Positions 56,810 through 64,000 of a stretch of 64,000 nt of DNA are shown here, one piece after another. Position 1 is the stretch's first letter, and every line of letters starts with the position of its first letter. The position numbers and the translations under genes are program-made. The notes beneath the pieces were generated by a model that was given only the letters and a program-made list of their open reading frames with translations, was not told the DNA's origin and did not search any database. This stretch comes from Halobaculum marinum (lineage in GTDB: Archaea > Halobacteriota > Halobacteria > Halobacteriales > Haloferacaceae), in assembly GCF_029338555.1 (NCBI RefSeq), contig NZ_CP119989.1, forward strand, positions 1,054,001 through 1,118,000, in the 5' to 3' direction.

Positions 56810-57883
56810 TCAGAGGTAGCCGGCGTTCGGCAGCACGCCCAGCAGCGCCAACACCGCCACGACGAGCATCGCGAGCGCGATGGCCATCGCCGGCGGGTCG
56901 ACGTGGGTGCCCGAGTGGGCGTAGAGGATCCGCTGGGTCACCTCGCCGAGCAGGCCGCTGACCACGCCAAACACGCCCGCCGCGAGCAGCGCGACGACGC
57001 TCCCCGCCATCGGGTCGACGACGACCGCTCCGACGGCCCCGATGAGCGTGATGTGGTGGGTGACTGGGATCTTCTCGACGCCGAGTTGGAGGAACAGCAG
57101 GCTCATCGCCGAGATGGCGTAGCCCAGGAAGATGCTCCCCGTCTGGATCCAGATGTAGCCGCCGAGGATGCCGCCCACGAGTCCGATGGTGGCGACGCCG
57201 GCCCACTTGTACTGGTGGGGGAGCCACGGCTCGGTCGCGAGGCGATTCGGGTACAGGCCGTCGGCGGTGCCGCCGTCGGCGGCGGCCGCGGGCTCTTCGC
57301 GCTCGAACGGCGACATGTCGAGGAAGCCCCCGCCGGCGGGTCGACCGACCAGCGGGTAGCCGAACGTGAGCCGGGCGATGAGCGCCGTGAGCACGACCGA
57401 CAGCGCGATCGTGTCGGTCGGCGTGCCGACGGCGGCGGCGACCTGGTTGATCAACATCCCCAGAACGCCGAACACCGCGCCGACGGCGAGAATGTCAGGC
57501 TGCGTGCCGAAGGCGTACAGGATGTTCTTCCCGAAGTGGTAGTCCCAGCCGTCGGGCTTCATCTCCGGGTACTTCATGCCGGCGTACGCGGACGCCGCCA
57601 CGCCGCCCGCGAAGGCGATGTGGGGGCCGGTGATCGCGCCGAAGCCGATCACGCCGGTGACGTTCGTCCCGAGCGTCGCGTCGATGGCGGGGACCGCGGC
57701 GACCTCCCGCTGGAGGTACGCGAGCCCCTCACCGAGGAAGACGACGAACCCGGTGAAGATGAACGCCGGGAGCGCGCCGATCGCTGCGCCGAACGCCCCG
57801 CCCGCGAGCGCGGTGATGAACAGGAGGATGAAGGCCTCCCACTCCATTCCGAGAAGCGGGACTTGGATGATGAGTTCGTGCAT
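56810..57883 (-). CDS. Membrane protein linked to glycerol kinase, candidate glycerol transporter
   Basis: A 357-residue protein with about ten helices. The first is AFILLFITALAGGAFGAAIGALPAF. Gly-rich pore-like segments include NVTGVIGFGAITGPHIAFAGGVAASAYAGM (about residues 74-103). A polar inside loop of about 40 residues (about 190-230) splits it, and GEVTQRILYAHSGTHVDPPAMAI follows near 315-337. It has no NPA boxes of aquaglyceroporins and no MFS pattern. It starts six bases after the glpK stop, so it is co-transcribed with glycerol kinase. That placement suggests glycerol uptake, an inference from context only. Confidence 0.75.
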   Translation of the reverse strand: MHELIIQVPLLGMEWEAFILLFITALAGGAFGAAIGALPAFIFTGFVVFLGEGLAYLQREVAAVPAIDATLGTNVTGVIGFGAITGPHIAFAGGVAASAYAGMKYPEMKPDGWDYHFGKNILYAFGTQPDILAVGAVFGVLGMLINQVAAAVGTPTDTIALSVVLTALIARLTFGYPLVGRPAGGGFLDMSPFEREEPAAAADGGTADGLYPNRLATEPWLPHQYKWAGVATIGLVGGILGGYIWIQTGSIFLGYAISAMSLLFLQLGVEKIPVTHHITLIGAVGAVVVDPMAGSVVALLAAGVFGVVSGLLGEVTQRILYAHSGTHVDPPAMAIALAMLVVAVLALLGVLPNAGYL

Positions 57884-57889
57884 ACACGA

Positions 57890-59422
<1,533 letters not shown>

Positions 59423-59668: not shown

Positions 59669-60847
59669 ATGGACATCGAGGACCGCATCGCGCGTCGTCG
59701 CCGGACCGGCGACCGTCACCGACTCGTGCTCGACGAGGACCCGTTGAGTCCCGTCTGGCACCCCGAAGAACCGATCGGGCGCGGCCCACTCGTCGAACGC
59801 CTCCTCGACCACTTCGACCCCGTGTTCGACGGCACCGTCCCGCCGAACGGCTACCTGTACGGCCCCGGCGGGACGGGGAAGTCCGCGGTCACGACCGCCC
59901 TCGTCGAGCGACTGGCCGGGTCGCTGTCTCCGCCAACGGACGCCGTCTACACGACCACGCGCGGCGGGAGCGCCCCCGGCGTCTCGTTCGTCCGCGTGGA
60001 CCTCCGCGAGGCGGACTCGGCGTTCGAGTTCGCACACGCCGTCCTCGACGGCCTCGTGCCCGAATCGGTCCCCCGGAGCGGCGTCGGCACAGACGAGATT
60101 CACGAGCGGTTGGAACGACGCGTCCGCGGCGGCGGACCGGTCGTGGTCGTCGCGGACCACGTCGCCGAACCCGAGACGGTCGACGTGGCGACCGTCGACG
60201 ACCGCCTCGCGGGCGTCGCTGGCGCCTTCGCATGGCTCGCCATCGGTCGTGAGGAGCCATCGGCGGCGGGCGTCCCGCCCGAGACCGCCGTCGTCGAAGT
60301 CGACCCGTACTCGCAGGCGGCGCTGACGGACCTGTTGGCCGCTCGCGCGGACGCCGGTCTCGGGCAGGGGTCGCTGAGCCACGCCTCCATCCGGCGCGTC
60401 GCCGAGTGGGCGGAGGGCGACGCAGAGTTCGCTCTCTCGGCGGTGTTGGGGGCGGTCGAAGCCGCATCCGCCGCCGGCGAGGCCGTCGTCGACGACGCCG
60501 ACATCGAGGCCGGCATGCGGGCGGTTCCGTGGCCGTGTGTCCCCCTCGGACGGGTGCTCGCGCTCCCCGCGAACCGGATCCGGGCGCTCCGGTGTCTCGT
60601 CGCGCTCGCCCCCGAGCAGCGCGCGCCCGTCAGCGGCTGTGCGGCGCGGATCGCTGGCGAACTCGACCTCACCGCCTCCACCGTCGAGCGGTTCCTCTAC
60701 GAACTCGCCGAGACCGGCGTCGTCGAACGCGTGCAGGTCGACGACCACGGCGGCCCCGGCCGGCCGCCGAGCCGCGTGGAACCGCGCTTCGCGACACTCG
60801 CGTTCCAACGGCTCAGCCGACGGCGGTTCGACCGCACGACCGTCTGA
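59669..60847 (+). CDS. Divergent Orc1/Cdc6-like AAA+ ATPase
   Basis: A 392-residue protein. The opening RIARRRRTGDRHRLVLDEDPLSPVWHPEEPIGRGPLVERLLDHFDPV matches Orc1/Cdc6, including the RE/RG-x-L helix. Walker A is GPGGTGKSA (about residues 66-74). Walker B reads VVVVADHV (about 156-163) instead of the usual LDEID, so catalytic acids are missing or moved. A C-terminal winged helix (about 305-385) includes ASTVERFLYELAETGVVERVQ. It may bind DNA without normal ATP turnover. It sits between glpK and glpAB, so it could be a local regulator instead of a replication initiator. Confidence 0.78.
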   Translation: MDIEDRIARRRRTGDRHRLVLDEDPLSPVWHPEEPIGRGPLVERLLDHFDPVFDGTVPPNGYLYGPGGTGKSAVTTALVERLAGSLSPPTDAVYTTTRGGSAPGVSFVRVDLREADSAFEFAHAVLDGLVPESVPRSGVGTDEIHERLERRVRGGGPVVVVADHVAEPETVDVATVDDRLAGVAGAFAWLAIGREEPSAAGVPPETAVVEVDPYSQAALTDLLAARADAGLGQGSLSHASIRRVAEWAEGDAEFALSAVLGAVEAASAAGEAVVDDADIEAGMRAVPWPCVPLGRVLALPANRIRALRCLVALAPEQRAPVSGCAARIAGELDLTASTVERFLYELAETGVVERVQVDDHGGPGRPPSRVEPRFATLAFQRLSRRRFDRTTV

Positions 60848-60948: not shown

Positions 60949-62736
60949 ATGAGCGAACGGACCGAGGTGCTCGTGATCGGCGGCGGGTCGACAGGCTGCG
61001 GCGTGGCGCGAGACCTCGCCATCCGCGGCGTCGACGTGACGCTCGTCGAGCAGGGCAACCTCACACACGGGACGACGGGGCGGATGCACGGACTCCTCCA
61101 CAGCGGCGGCCGGTACGCCGTCTCCGACCAGGCCAGCGCCCGGGAGTGTATCGAGGAGAATCGGGTGTTGCGCGACATCGCGAGCCACTGCGTCGAGATG
61201 ACCGGCGGGCTGTTCGTGAAGCGACCGGAGGACACCGAGGAGTACTTCCAGAAGAAGTTGGAGGGCTGTCGCGAGTGTGGCATTCCCGCGGAGGTGCTCT
61301 CTGCAGAGGAGGCTCGCGAGGTCGAACCGTTCCTCGCCGGCGACATCGACAAGGCGATCCGGGTTCCCGACGGCGCCATCGACCCGTTCCGCCTGTGCGT
61401 CGCCAACGCCGCCGACGCCGAACAACACGGTGCGCGCATCGAGACGCACTCGCCGGTGACGGACGTGCTCGTCGAGGACGGCGAGATCGTCGGCGTCGAG
61501 GTGACCCACGAATCCGGGCCGGGCAAGCGCGTCCACGGCACCGAGGGCGGCACGGAGGCGATCTACGCCGACCACATCGTCAACGCGACGGGCGCGTGGG
61601 CGGGTCGCATCGGCGACATGGCCGGCGTGACCGTCGAGGTGCGGCCGAGCAAGGGCGTGATGACGGTGATGAACGTCCGCGAGGTCGACACGGTGATCAA
61701 CCGCTGTCAGCCGAAGGGCGACGCCGACATCGTCGTCCCCCACGAGACGACCTGCATCCTCGGCACGACCGACGAGGAGGTCGAAGACCCCGAGGACTAC
61801 CCCGAGGAGGCGTGGGAGGTCGACCTCATGATCGAGGAGCTGTCGAAGCTCGTTCCCATGCTCGAAGACGCCCGCACGATCCGGTCGTACTGGGGCGTAC
61901 GCCCGCTGTACGAGCCCCCGGGCACCGGCACCGCCGACCCGACGGACATCACGCGGGACTTCTTCCTGCTCGACCACGCCGAGCGCGACGACCTGCCCGG
62001 GATGACCTCCATCGTCGGCGGGAAGTTCACCACCTACCGGCTGATGGCCGAGAAAATCTCCGACCACGTCTGCGACCTGCTCGGCGTCGACGCCGAGTGT
62101 ACGACCGCCGACGAGCCCCTCCCCGGCAGCGAGGACTTCTCTGTGCTGCGCGACTACATGGACGAGTTCGGCCTCCGCTCGCCGATCGGCCGCCGGAGCG
62201 TCCAGCGACTCGGCAGCCGCGCCGACGAGGTACTCAAGACGGACGAGGCGAACCCAGTAGTCTGTCAGTGCGAAGCCGTCACGCGAGCGGAACTGCGCGA
62301 CGCCATCGGTGAGTCGGGGACCGACTTGAACGACGTTCGGCTCAGGACCCGCGCGTCGATGGGCAACTGTCAGGGCGGCTTCTGCGCCCACCGGATGGCG
62401 AACGAACTCCACGATTTCGGCGGCTACGACCAGCCGACCGTCGACGCCGCGCTCGACGAACTGTGGCAAGAGCGGTGGAAGGGCCAGCGCCACGCGCTGT
62501 GGGGCCAACAGCTCTCGCAGGCGATGCTCAACCACCTGCTGCACGCGACGACGATGAACCGGGACGGCGCCGCCCCGGAGGACTTTGCGGCGTTCGACAC
62601 GGGTGAGGCGCCCGACACCGCGGGCGGCCTCGACGACGCGGGTGACGCCACGGGTGCGACCGCCCCCGACGGCGGCATCCCGGTCGACGCCGACGCGATG
62701 GACCGACGCGACGGGGGTGACGCGGGTGGCGATTGA
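60949..62736 (+). CDS. glpA: Anaerobic glycerol-3-phosphate dehydrogenase subunit A
   Basis: A 595-residue flavoprotein that oxidises glycerol 3-phosphate to dihydroxyacetone phosphate. The FAD motif [18 protein letters not shown] opens it (about residues 6-23), followed by [20 protein letters not shown] (about 41-60). Residues about 435-485 form a BFD-like [2Fe-2S] domain with CQC and NCQGGFC (Cys near 438, 440, 474 and 479). The final 60 residues are a low-complexity Gly/Asp tail. The ATG lies nine bases after an inverted repeat. Its end overlaps glpB by eleven bases, so the subunits are co-translated. Confidence 0.95.
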
Positions 62737-64000
62737 GTCGGACGTTGTCGTCGTCGGCGGCGGCCTCGCCGGCGCGACCGCGGCGCTGTCGGCGGCCCGC
62801 GAGGGCGTGCACGTGCACCTCATCTCCGCGAAGGAGAGCACGCTCCGGCAGGCCAGCGGGCTGGTCGACGCGCTCGGCTACCCCGACCCCGACGCGGGGA
62901 CGGGCCCCGTCGCCGACCCGTTCACTGGTGTCGACGACCTCCCCGACAACCACCCGTACCGCGTCGTCGGCGCCGACGCGCTCCGCGAGGGGTTGGCGCT
63001 GTTCGACGGCGTCGTCGGCGACCTGTATCGGGGGAGCCACACCGACCGCAACGCGCTCGTGGCGACGACCTCCGGGCGCGCGAAGCCGACCGCGCGGTAC
63101 CCGCGTAGCATGGCGGCCGGCCTCGTCAGCGACGACCGACCGACGCTCCTCGTGGGGTTCGAGGCGGCCACGGACTTCGACGCGCCACTGGCGGCGGAGC
63201 GCCTGACCGCCGCGGGCGTCCCCTTCGACGTGAGGGGGGCCACCGTCGAGTTCCCGGGCGACTACCGCGCCGACGCCGCGGTGACGCGCCTCGCGCACGC
63301 GCTCGAACGGGACGAGGATGCCGGGAACGGCCGCTCGACCCGACAGCGCCTCGCCGACCGCGTGCGCCCGAACCTCGGCGACGCCGAGCGTGTCGGCTTC
63401 CCGGCGATGCTGGGCGACGCCCACGTCGAGGAGGTGCGGGCGGACCTGTCGGAACGCCTCGACGCCGAGGTGTTCGAGATTCCCACGGGGCCGCCGAGCC
63501 TCCCGGGGATCCGACTGGAGGACCGTCTGTTCGACGCGCTCGACGAGGCGGGCGTGTCGATGACGACCGGGAACCCGGTCGTCGACTACGAGACGGACGA
63601 CGACGGCGACATCGACCACGTGATCATCGACCGCAACGGCGCACGGATCCCGTACAGCGCCGGCGCGTACGTGCTCGCCACGGGCGGCCTCGTCGGCAAG
63701 GGCCTCGACTCCGACCGCGACGGGCCGCGTGAGGGGGTGTTCGGCTGTCACGTCCCCGCGCCCGAGGATCGGATGGCGTGGTCTGCGGAGGGCGCGTTCG
63801 CGGACCACGCGTTCGCACGCTTCGGGGTCGACCCGGACGAACAACTCCGGCCGCTCGACGCGAGCGGATCGCCGGAGTTCGGCAACCTGTTCGCCGCCGG
63901 CGGGGTCGTCGGCGGCGCGGACGTGGCGCGGGAGAAGTCGGCCAGCGGCGTCTCGCTGGCCACGGGGCTGGTCGCGGGCCGTACCGCGGCGGAGGAGGTA
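62726..64000 (+). CDS. glpB: Anaerobic glycerol-3-phosphate dehydrogenase subunit B, truncated by window edge
   Basis: The 425 visible codons encode a second flavoprotein subunit. The FAD motif [21 protein letters not shown] opens it (about residues 7-27). [17 protein letters not shown] (about 43-59) and the C-terminal [30 protein letters not shown] (about 389-418) are typical of GlpB. It starts with GTG inside glpA. GlpB links GlpA to the iron-sulfur subunit GlpC, which would be expected just beyond the edge. Only the last few codons appear to be missing, as the family motif near the C-terminus is present. Confidence 0.93.

Follow-up and report, generated by a model that had tools for sequence, protein, structure and literature searches.

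How glycerol enters the cell is the question raised by this locus. Algal glycerol is a main carbon source in brines, its entry into most haloarchaea is unproven, and a gene of the MIP (aquaglyceroporin) family was found in only 24/195 sampled genomes. Here, we analysed a stretch of 64,000 nucleotides (the window) within contig C1 of genome G000, in which a membrane protein is encoded next to the glycerol kinase gene glpK. The original prediction, made from the letters of the window, considered this protein a plausible glycerol uptake protein of a type distinct from the known glycerol channels. The idea that this family carries glycerol is not new and has been in print since 2011, when Anderson et al. 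predicted a haloarchaeal glycerol transporter family beside glpK (PMC3102087); the prediction was repeated in PMC3402447 and raised again in PMC5496347, and the available text of these three proposals contains no uptake measurement. What we add is a hypothesis on the fold of the protein and the description of an arsenic branch of the family that displaces the arsenite exporter Acr3 in place.

A membrane protein gene follows glpK in the glycerol locus

The genes of the locus are listed in Table 1. The membrane protein, which we label TP, belongs to a family that has no Pfam or NCBIfam model, and its nearest named relatives are from Halobaculum species. The start of glpB was set at the start of the family model and its end lies about 3 bases past the window, where it is followed by glpC (NF008369, 567.3 bits). 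Between glpK and glpA lies a gene for an Orc1/Cdc6-like ATPase, which is perhaps a regulator of the glycerol genes. An Orc1/Cdc6-like gene is also present in 64 of the 113 glpK-bearing loci longer than 9 kb, as well as in L085, L166, L175 and L184, stretches in which no glpK was found.

Table 1. Genes of the glycerol locus in the window.
Feature	Coordinates	Strand	Details
TP, predicted polyol (glycerol) channel	56810..57883	-	357 aa, ATG start
glpK, glycerol kinase, upstream partner of TP	57890..59422	-	NCBIfam TIGR01311 732.9 bits, equivalog cut-off 590.35
Orc1/Cdc6-like ATPase	59669..60847	+	TIGR02928 66.2 bits, below cut-off 181.3
glpA, glycerol-3-phosphate dehydrogenase subunit A	60949..62736	+	TIGR03377 757.1 bits, cut-off 552.8
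glpB, glycerol-3-phosphate dehydrogenase subunit B	62726..64000	+	NF003722 658.6 bits, cut-off 349

The predicted spacing of six bases between glpK and TP is exact (bases 57884-57889), and the estimate of about ten helices is fair, since the AlphaFold2 model contains nine helices of at least 16 residues, together with a broken helix pair (253-261, 263-266) and a short helix (75-80). Glycine makes up 50 of the 357 residues. The NPA box was rightly described as absent (NPA count 0), and the proposed profile search returned no Pfam or NCBIfam match for TP at E ≤ 0.1; thus, these sequence profiles do not assign TP to a transporter family with another substrate. A Pfam HTH_Tnp_2 match (E = 0.26) and the RTX matches of 7/100 relatives (best E = 7e-4) were taken as chance matches of a glycine-rich membrane protein. 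When 100 relatives were compared with Pfam and NCBIfam, only scattered, chance-like matches were obtained; these 100 are representatives of 214 family sequences, with less than 82% mutual identity and at least 290 aa.

The linkage to glpK is conserved

The linkage of this gene to glpK proved to be conserved. In the first 118 homologous loci (L001-L118), which contain 105 distinct genes, the TP-family gene adjoins glpK on the same strand in 103 of the 105, and the two exceptions are a gene at a contig end (L085) and a true orphan (L083). This adjacency is far beyond chance expectation. The gap between glpK and the TP-family gene has a median of 3 bases (range -19 to 44; 158 distinct cases, with start codons picked by script). 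In Halobaculum litoreum, glpK is broken across two frames (L002, L014 and L121, the first two being one gene counted twice), which may be a sequencing error or a pseudogene.

The TP family is carried by 131 of the 195 sampled genomes of the order, and GlpK was detected in 159/195 at E ≤ 0.001 and in 152/195 above the cut-off. GlpK is present in 129 of the 131 genomes with the TP family (Fisher p = 6e-18, relatedness ignored). When 246 genomes were drawn from the phylum, 29 matched the TP family, and all 29 are inside the order. After the 214 sequences were merged by identity across the C-terminal part, 196 distinct sequences remained; 149 of them have glpK only beside them, 12 have both glpK and ars genes, 13 have ars genes only and 22 have neither, counts which are not population frequencies because the loci were partly picked with the arsenic paralog as query. 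Six of the 22 belong to a divergent clade without readable context.

MIP channels occupy the same slot behind glpK

In 10/195 genomes (G119, G185, G106, G206, G124, G202, G048, G184, G166 and G179), a MIP gene lies 15-139 bases behind a glpK, as measured by the matched stretches. In G119 and G185 (L240 and L241), a MIP gene that scores above the family cut-off and has the NPA box directly follows glpK, and the TP family is absent; besides the glpK accompanied by MIP, the remaining eight genomes have another one that precedes a TP-family gene. The MIP search of the genome of the window gave no match, and the MIP profile (PF00230) matched none of the 100 TP-family members at E ≤ 0.1. Mutual exclusion of the TP family and MIP between genomes was considered and dropped (p = 0.34). 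Among the 159 GlpK-bearing genomes, 13 have both families, 116 have the TP family only, 5 have MIP only and 25 have neither. Since there is no mutual exclusion among these genomes, neither family is obligatory, and the 25 genomes with neither show that other routes or plain diffusion must serve too.

The predicted fold distantly resembles urea-transporter and Amt/Rh channels

The AlphaFold2 model of TP, built with 100 sequences, has a mean pLDDT of 95.0 and a pTM of 0.93, and that of a Haloferax homolog, built with 34 sequences, has a pLDDT of 82.0 and a pTM of 0.84. For the TP model, Foldseek alone found nothing in the PDB at E ≤ 0.001; its top rows were of the MFS type, and MFS was rejected since these rows had E values of 0.1 or worse and TM below 0.26. 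The viral structure library likewise gave nothing at E ≤ 0.001. A search of the PDB by sequence with TP alone gave no match, and a search by family profile gave eight soluble or single-helix chains at E 0.1-1.2, which were set aside.

In a second look, VIA-align was run over the 1000 best-ranked Foldseek chains. For the TP model, rows 1-13 are all urea transporters (Z 7.8-6.3, rmsd 4.8-6.3, 181-205 aligned), rows 14-29 are all Amt/Mep/Rh proteins, and the first unrelated row has a Z of 4.7. For the Haloferax model, rows 1-14 are all urea transporters (Z 8.0-7.2) and rows 15-30 are all Amt/Mep/Rh proteins (Z 6.0-5.0), with the first unrelated row at Z 5.0, so that the lowest Amt rows are tied with unrelated chains. 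Over the two models, the best urea-transporter Z values are 7.8 and 8.0 (181-205 residues at 4.6-6.3 Å), where, according to the tool, a Z of 7-8 is common among models with no clear relative and a Z below 8 may reflect a common arrangement. Neither second look contained a MIP row, although such lists cannot exclude a fold. At E ≤ 0.1, neither the urea-transporter profile PF03253 nor the Amt profile PF00909 matched any of the 100 TP-family members; the PF03253 search of genomes was uninformative, since the controls gave no match as well. The likeness of TP to the urea-transporter and Amt/Rh channels therefore appears to be a distant resemblance and not membership; weak as it is, it fits a channel for a neutral solute. 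Among the papers listed in the literature searches, the openly readable text ties the TP family neither to the urea-transporter fold nor to arsenic. A urea-transporter study is cited in a Haloferax paper of 2026, where, in the available text, the citation concerns urea as a nitrogen source only (PMC13358004).

An internal repeat was detected in the TP-family profile by local hhalign comparison (probability 87-92, score 41-45). As controls, the best of 60 block-shuffled profiles scored 23.7 and the reversed profile scored 14.6; a global run of the profile halves gave a probability of 57. The alignment of the halves pairs P87-H88 with H276-H277, and D157 with D329. H277, E314, R318, H323, H327 and D329 are invariant in 100/100 rows, D157 is present in 99/100 and E52 in 97/100, while position 88 is His in 83/100 and Ala in 17/100. 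P87-H88 and H276-H277 probably line the pore from equivalent places of the two repeats, and H88 and H277 in these positions are what we take to recall the twin-histidine pore of Amt/Rh proteins. By analogy with the urea-transporter and Amt folds, the two repeats may be inverted relative to each other.

A paralog clade belongs to arsenic operons

The genome of the window contains a second copy of the family at C1:1123730-1124878, 5.7 kb past the window. It comes last of three tightly packed genes, arsR (134 aa), arsC (156 aa) and the paralog, with overlaps of 1-4 bases at the gene ends; the operon spans L119:15731-17750 (G000:C1:1123730-1125749). An arsR-arsC-paralog set is also carried by Halobaculum litoreum. 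Its ArsR scores above the NCBIfam metalloregulator cut-off, and its ArsC is of the low-molecular-weight-phosphatase type, for which the best NCBIfam models are arsenate reductases, with scores below their cut-offs. The 13 of 196 distinct sequences that adjoin arsC and not glpK all fall into one pure clade (FastTree, midpoint-rooted; support 0.94), which spans the tool families f1, f4, f5, f7, f13, f16 and f17. In 10 of the 13, arsR and arsC are on the same strand as the channel gene, and in two of these (L152 and L153) an arsM lies between arsC and the channel gene (351 and 334 bits, arsenite methyltransferase cut-off 263). Among the remaining three, L158 is located at the end of a contig. L154 and L160 are surrounded by genes of phosphate uptake (L154, PstS below and PstB above the cut-off; L160, PstC and PstB above the cut-off), which fits the entry of arsenate through Pst; on the opposite strand, L154 also has a gene that resembles arsR.

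In genus g1, the interval between ileS and glpC was compared in ten of the eleven genomes seen (G000-G009; G010 was left out). arsR and arsC are always present in this interval. Behind arsC lies the paralog in G000, G001 and G008 and Acr3 in G002, G003, G004, G005, G006 and G009, with a second arsR ahead of Acr3 in G002-G004. All six Acr3 genes score above the TIGR00832 cut-off of 282.8 (369.6-374.1 bits), and each of these six genomes has a single TP-family match, which is linked to glpK. In G007 (L269), arsR-arsC is followed by neither Acr3 nor the paralog; by eye, a thioesterase-like frame lies on the opposite strand between arsC and glpC.

Acr3 was found above the cut-off in 111/195 haloarchaea, and at E ≤ 0.001 in 149/195. 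It is present in 0/10 genomes with arsR-arsC-paralog and in 2/13 genomes with an ars-clade copy (G187 and G029), a depletion with Fisher p values of 2.6e-4 for the 10 genomes and 0.0035 for the 13, uncorrected for phylogeny; at the genus level, the p value of 0.003 is rough, as it compares 7 genera with 192 genomes and is likewise uncorrected. Six of the 13 ars-clade genomes are part of the 195-genome sample, and G033 and G029 are 59% and 78% complete, respectively. ArsB (PF02040) was found in 0/13 ars-clade genomes. The genome of the window has neither Acr3 nor ArsB, and SBF (PF01758) is absent from it as well. The relationship is no strict rule, because G007 and seven genomes of genus g33 also lack Acr3; in the seven, Acr3 matches are weak and below the cut-off, and no ars-clade copy is among the matches listed. 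Taken together, these results suggest that the same channel type has been reused to let arsenite out.

Other gene contexts of the family

Twelve distinct loci combine glpK, the channel gene and an ars gene (L020 and L103 of G058 being the same locus), and all twelve are in family f17. In G140, G134, G194 and G157, arsR and Acr3 follow the glpK-channel pair. Such loci would fit a need to expel arsenite that leaks in through a glycerol channel, which is suggestive at most: they are weak evidence because G146 (L227) has glpK-arsR-acr3 and lacks the TP family. Glycerol and arsenite genes thus cluster in family f17 whether the channel is present or not.

Some copies lie beside other enzymes. sn-Glycerol-1-phosphate dehydrogenase makes the lipid backbone of archaea, and in genus g33 L166, L184 and L191 adjoin a gene for this enzyme, with L173 and L177 about 4 kb away (enzyme family confirmed for L166 and L173); this may indicate a link to glycerol and lipid turnover, or chance in one genus. 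In L168-L170, the channel copy occurs with an FGGY kinase, a class II aldolase and a 2-hydroxyacid dehydrogenase. The nearest models of the aldolase are fuculose- and ribulose-1-phosphate aldolases, below the cut-off, and two of the three loci also have glpABC-like genes; perhaps this pathway makes a small diol or aldehyde that must cross the membrane.

Bacterial homologs were found in seven plasmid records, and contexts were obtained from four. Where annotated, the homolog is named 'hypothetical protein'. The four homologs, two of them near-identical proteins of Rhodococcus, score 150-197 bits against the TP-family profile; as controls, MIP scores -5.6 bits and Acr3 3.3 bits. All four keep P87, H88, D157, P273, T275, H276, H277, E314, R318, H327, D329, P330 and P331; E52 is lost in 4/4 and H323 in 3/4. 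On a Microbacterium plasmid (NZ_CP089591.1; L242), an epoxide hydrolase, a haloalcohol dehalogenase and glpK precede the homolog, which follows 2 bases on; the halo-alcohol gene set is flanked by insertion sequences, and a pathway of these enzymes can end in glycerol. On two Rhodococcus plasmids, genes for an aldehyde dehydrogenase and an NDMA-dependent alcohol dehydrogenase lie before the homolog and genes for an enoyl-CoA hydratase, an AMP-binding enzyme and an acryloyl-CoA reductase lie after it, a set that may serve the use of 1,3-propanediol or 3-hydroxypropionate. On a Rubrobacter plasmid, a DeoR/GlpR regulator is encoded near the homolog, and a transketolase and an FGGY kinase are encoded further on. 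Most of the readable contexts point to small neutral polyols or As(OH)3.

Discussion

TP is predicted to be a glycerol transporter, a role that is well supported by gene context. A distinct, non-MIP uptake protein, as the original prediction had it, agrees with the glpK linkage, the co-occurrence with GlpK, the interchange with MIP in the slot behind glpK, the lack of MIP in this genome and the bacterial homolog behind glpK. We consider it probable that the family forms a passive, non-aquaporin polyol channel that lets glycerol in and, in its arsenic branch, lets As(OH)3 out, in convergence with GlpF and AqpS. This reading builds on the linkage, the phylogeny, the co-occurrence, the exchange with Acr3 at the same locus within one genus, the internal repeat and the predicted fold. 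Glycerol would diffuse inward through the TP channel, GlpK would trap it as glycerol-3-phosphate, and GlpABC would oxidise the latter. TP would represent a separate family with two repeats that have short or broken helices, and a pore between the repeats. A paralog clade would then have been recruited by arsenic operons: ArsC would reduce arsenate, and As(OH)3, a neutral mimic of glycerol, would exit via the paralog channel, in place of Acr3, down the gradient made by ArsC. What we infer here is that transport is passive, that its substrates are glycerol and As(OH)3, and which residues line the pore. A broader statement would be that a channel family outside the aquaporins, resembling urea transporters and Amt, acquired on its own the two roles known from aquaglyceroporins: it would take up glycerol together with GlpK and release arsenous acid together with ArsR-ArsC(-ArsM). 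In the second role it would have displaced Acr3 one gene for another and would supply the missing exit in haloarchaea where Acr3 and ArsB are absent. This statement seems to us somewhat better than an even call.

A counterpoint to a passive channel is that the conserved charged residues E52, D157, E314, R318, H327 and D329 could mean ion coupling. The family would then consist of secondary active transporters that take up glycerol by proton or sodium symport and expel arsenite by antiport, an alternative that we regard as unlikely. The ionisable residues, H323 included, are nearly or fully invariant in the 100 rows, and Acr3, whose position the arsenic branch has taken over, is driven by the proton motive force (PMC6205960); yet E52 is lost in all four bacterial homologs and H323 in three, the fold neighbours are channels, MIP channels occupy the same slot behind glpK, and an ars operon with a passive channel has a precedent in AqpS, according to the available text of PMC4435449 and PMC6205960. 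It is also rather improbable that the polyol channel is confined to the glycerol branch and that the arsenic paralog serves to export methylated arsenicals or transports another compound. The position of arsM between arsC and the channel gene in 2/10 arsR-arsC operons would agree with such a cargo, but the other 8/10 have no arsM there, all ten genomes lack Acr3 and ArsB (the two exporters covered), and in genus g1 the paralog sits where sister genomes have Acr3.

Two further readings were considered. In one, which we judge very improbable, the protein is not a transporter but serves at the membrane as a docking site or regulator for GlpK or a different cytoplasmic enzyme, as the tight coupling to glpK with its median gap of 3 bases might suggest; this is at odds with copies that lie beside arsC, arsM, other FGGY kinases and alcohol dehydrogenases with no glpK, and with the in-place exchange with two unrelated transporter families, MIP and Acr3. 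In the other, a conserved hypothetical membrane protein hitch-hikes with glpK by chance. In favour of this are the orphan L083 among the 105 distinct first genes and the 22/196 distinct sequences that adjoin no glpK and no ars gene, but the linkage is kept over many haloarchaeal families and an actinobacterial plasmid, and other small-polyol contexts exist, so that we give this explanation hardly any credence. A passive polyol channel remains our preferred reading. If both of its roles hold, two unrelated channel families would have arrived at the same pair of tasks, the uptake of glycerol and the release of its mimic As(OH)3, and would be a clean example of convergence.

Comparison with known systems

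The closest described counterpart of TP is the family of Anderson et al. 2011 (rrnAC0550 type), likewise a membrane protein beside glpK. TP, an uncharacterised membrane protein that adjoins a haloarchaeal glpK, is taken to belong to the same family by context, rrnAC0550 having been matched by context and not by sequence. Bacterial homologs of that family are described near glycerol or propanediol genes (PMC3102087), and in Haloquadratum HQ1732A is transcribed together with glpK (PMC5496347). Unlike the present analysis, the available text of the 2011 description includes no fold, no arsenic branch and no statistics.

Among channels of known structure, urea transporters (SLC14; PF03253) are two-repeat channels for a small neutral solute, with a fold of two inverted five-helix repeats and pore helices, and are the best fold neighbours of both TP-family models, with the differences that the Z values are middling and that urea is not implicated by any gene context seen. 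The Amt/Mep/Rh proteins (PF00909) are the second-best neighbours, at Z values of about 5-6, below those of the urea transporters.

In predicted function, a parallel is the MIP family (GlpF, AqpS; PF00230), which like the TP family acts as a partner of glpK and occupies the same gene slot. It differs in that the window protein lacks NPA and has more helices, and in that the TP family has no PF00230 match. The parallel extends to arsenic: As(III) passes through aquaglyceroporins, and in the arsenic operon of Sinorhizobium meliloti the part of ArsB is taken by AqpS, as far as the available text of PMC4435449 and PMC6205960 describes it, just as the paralog clade accompanies arsR and arsC where Acr3 or ArsB would be expected. 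For Halobacterium NRC-1, the available text of PMC3600143 reports that ArsB can be dispensed with and postulates a yet unidentified As(III) transporter other than ArsB; the arsenic paralog described here is a concrete candidate for a transporter of this kind.
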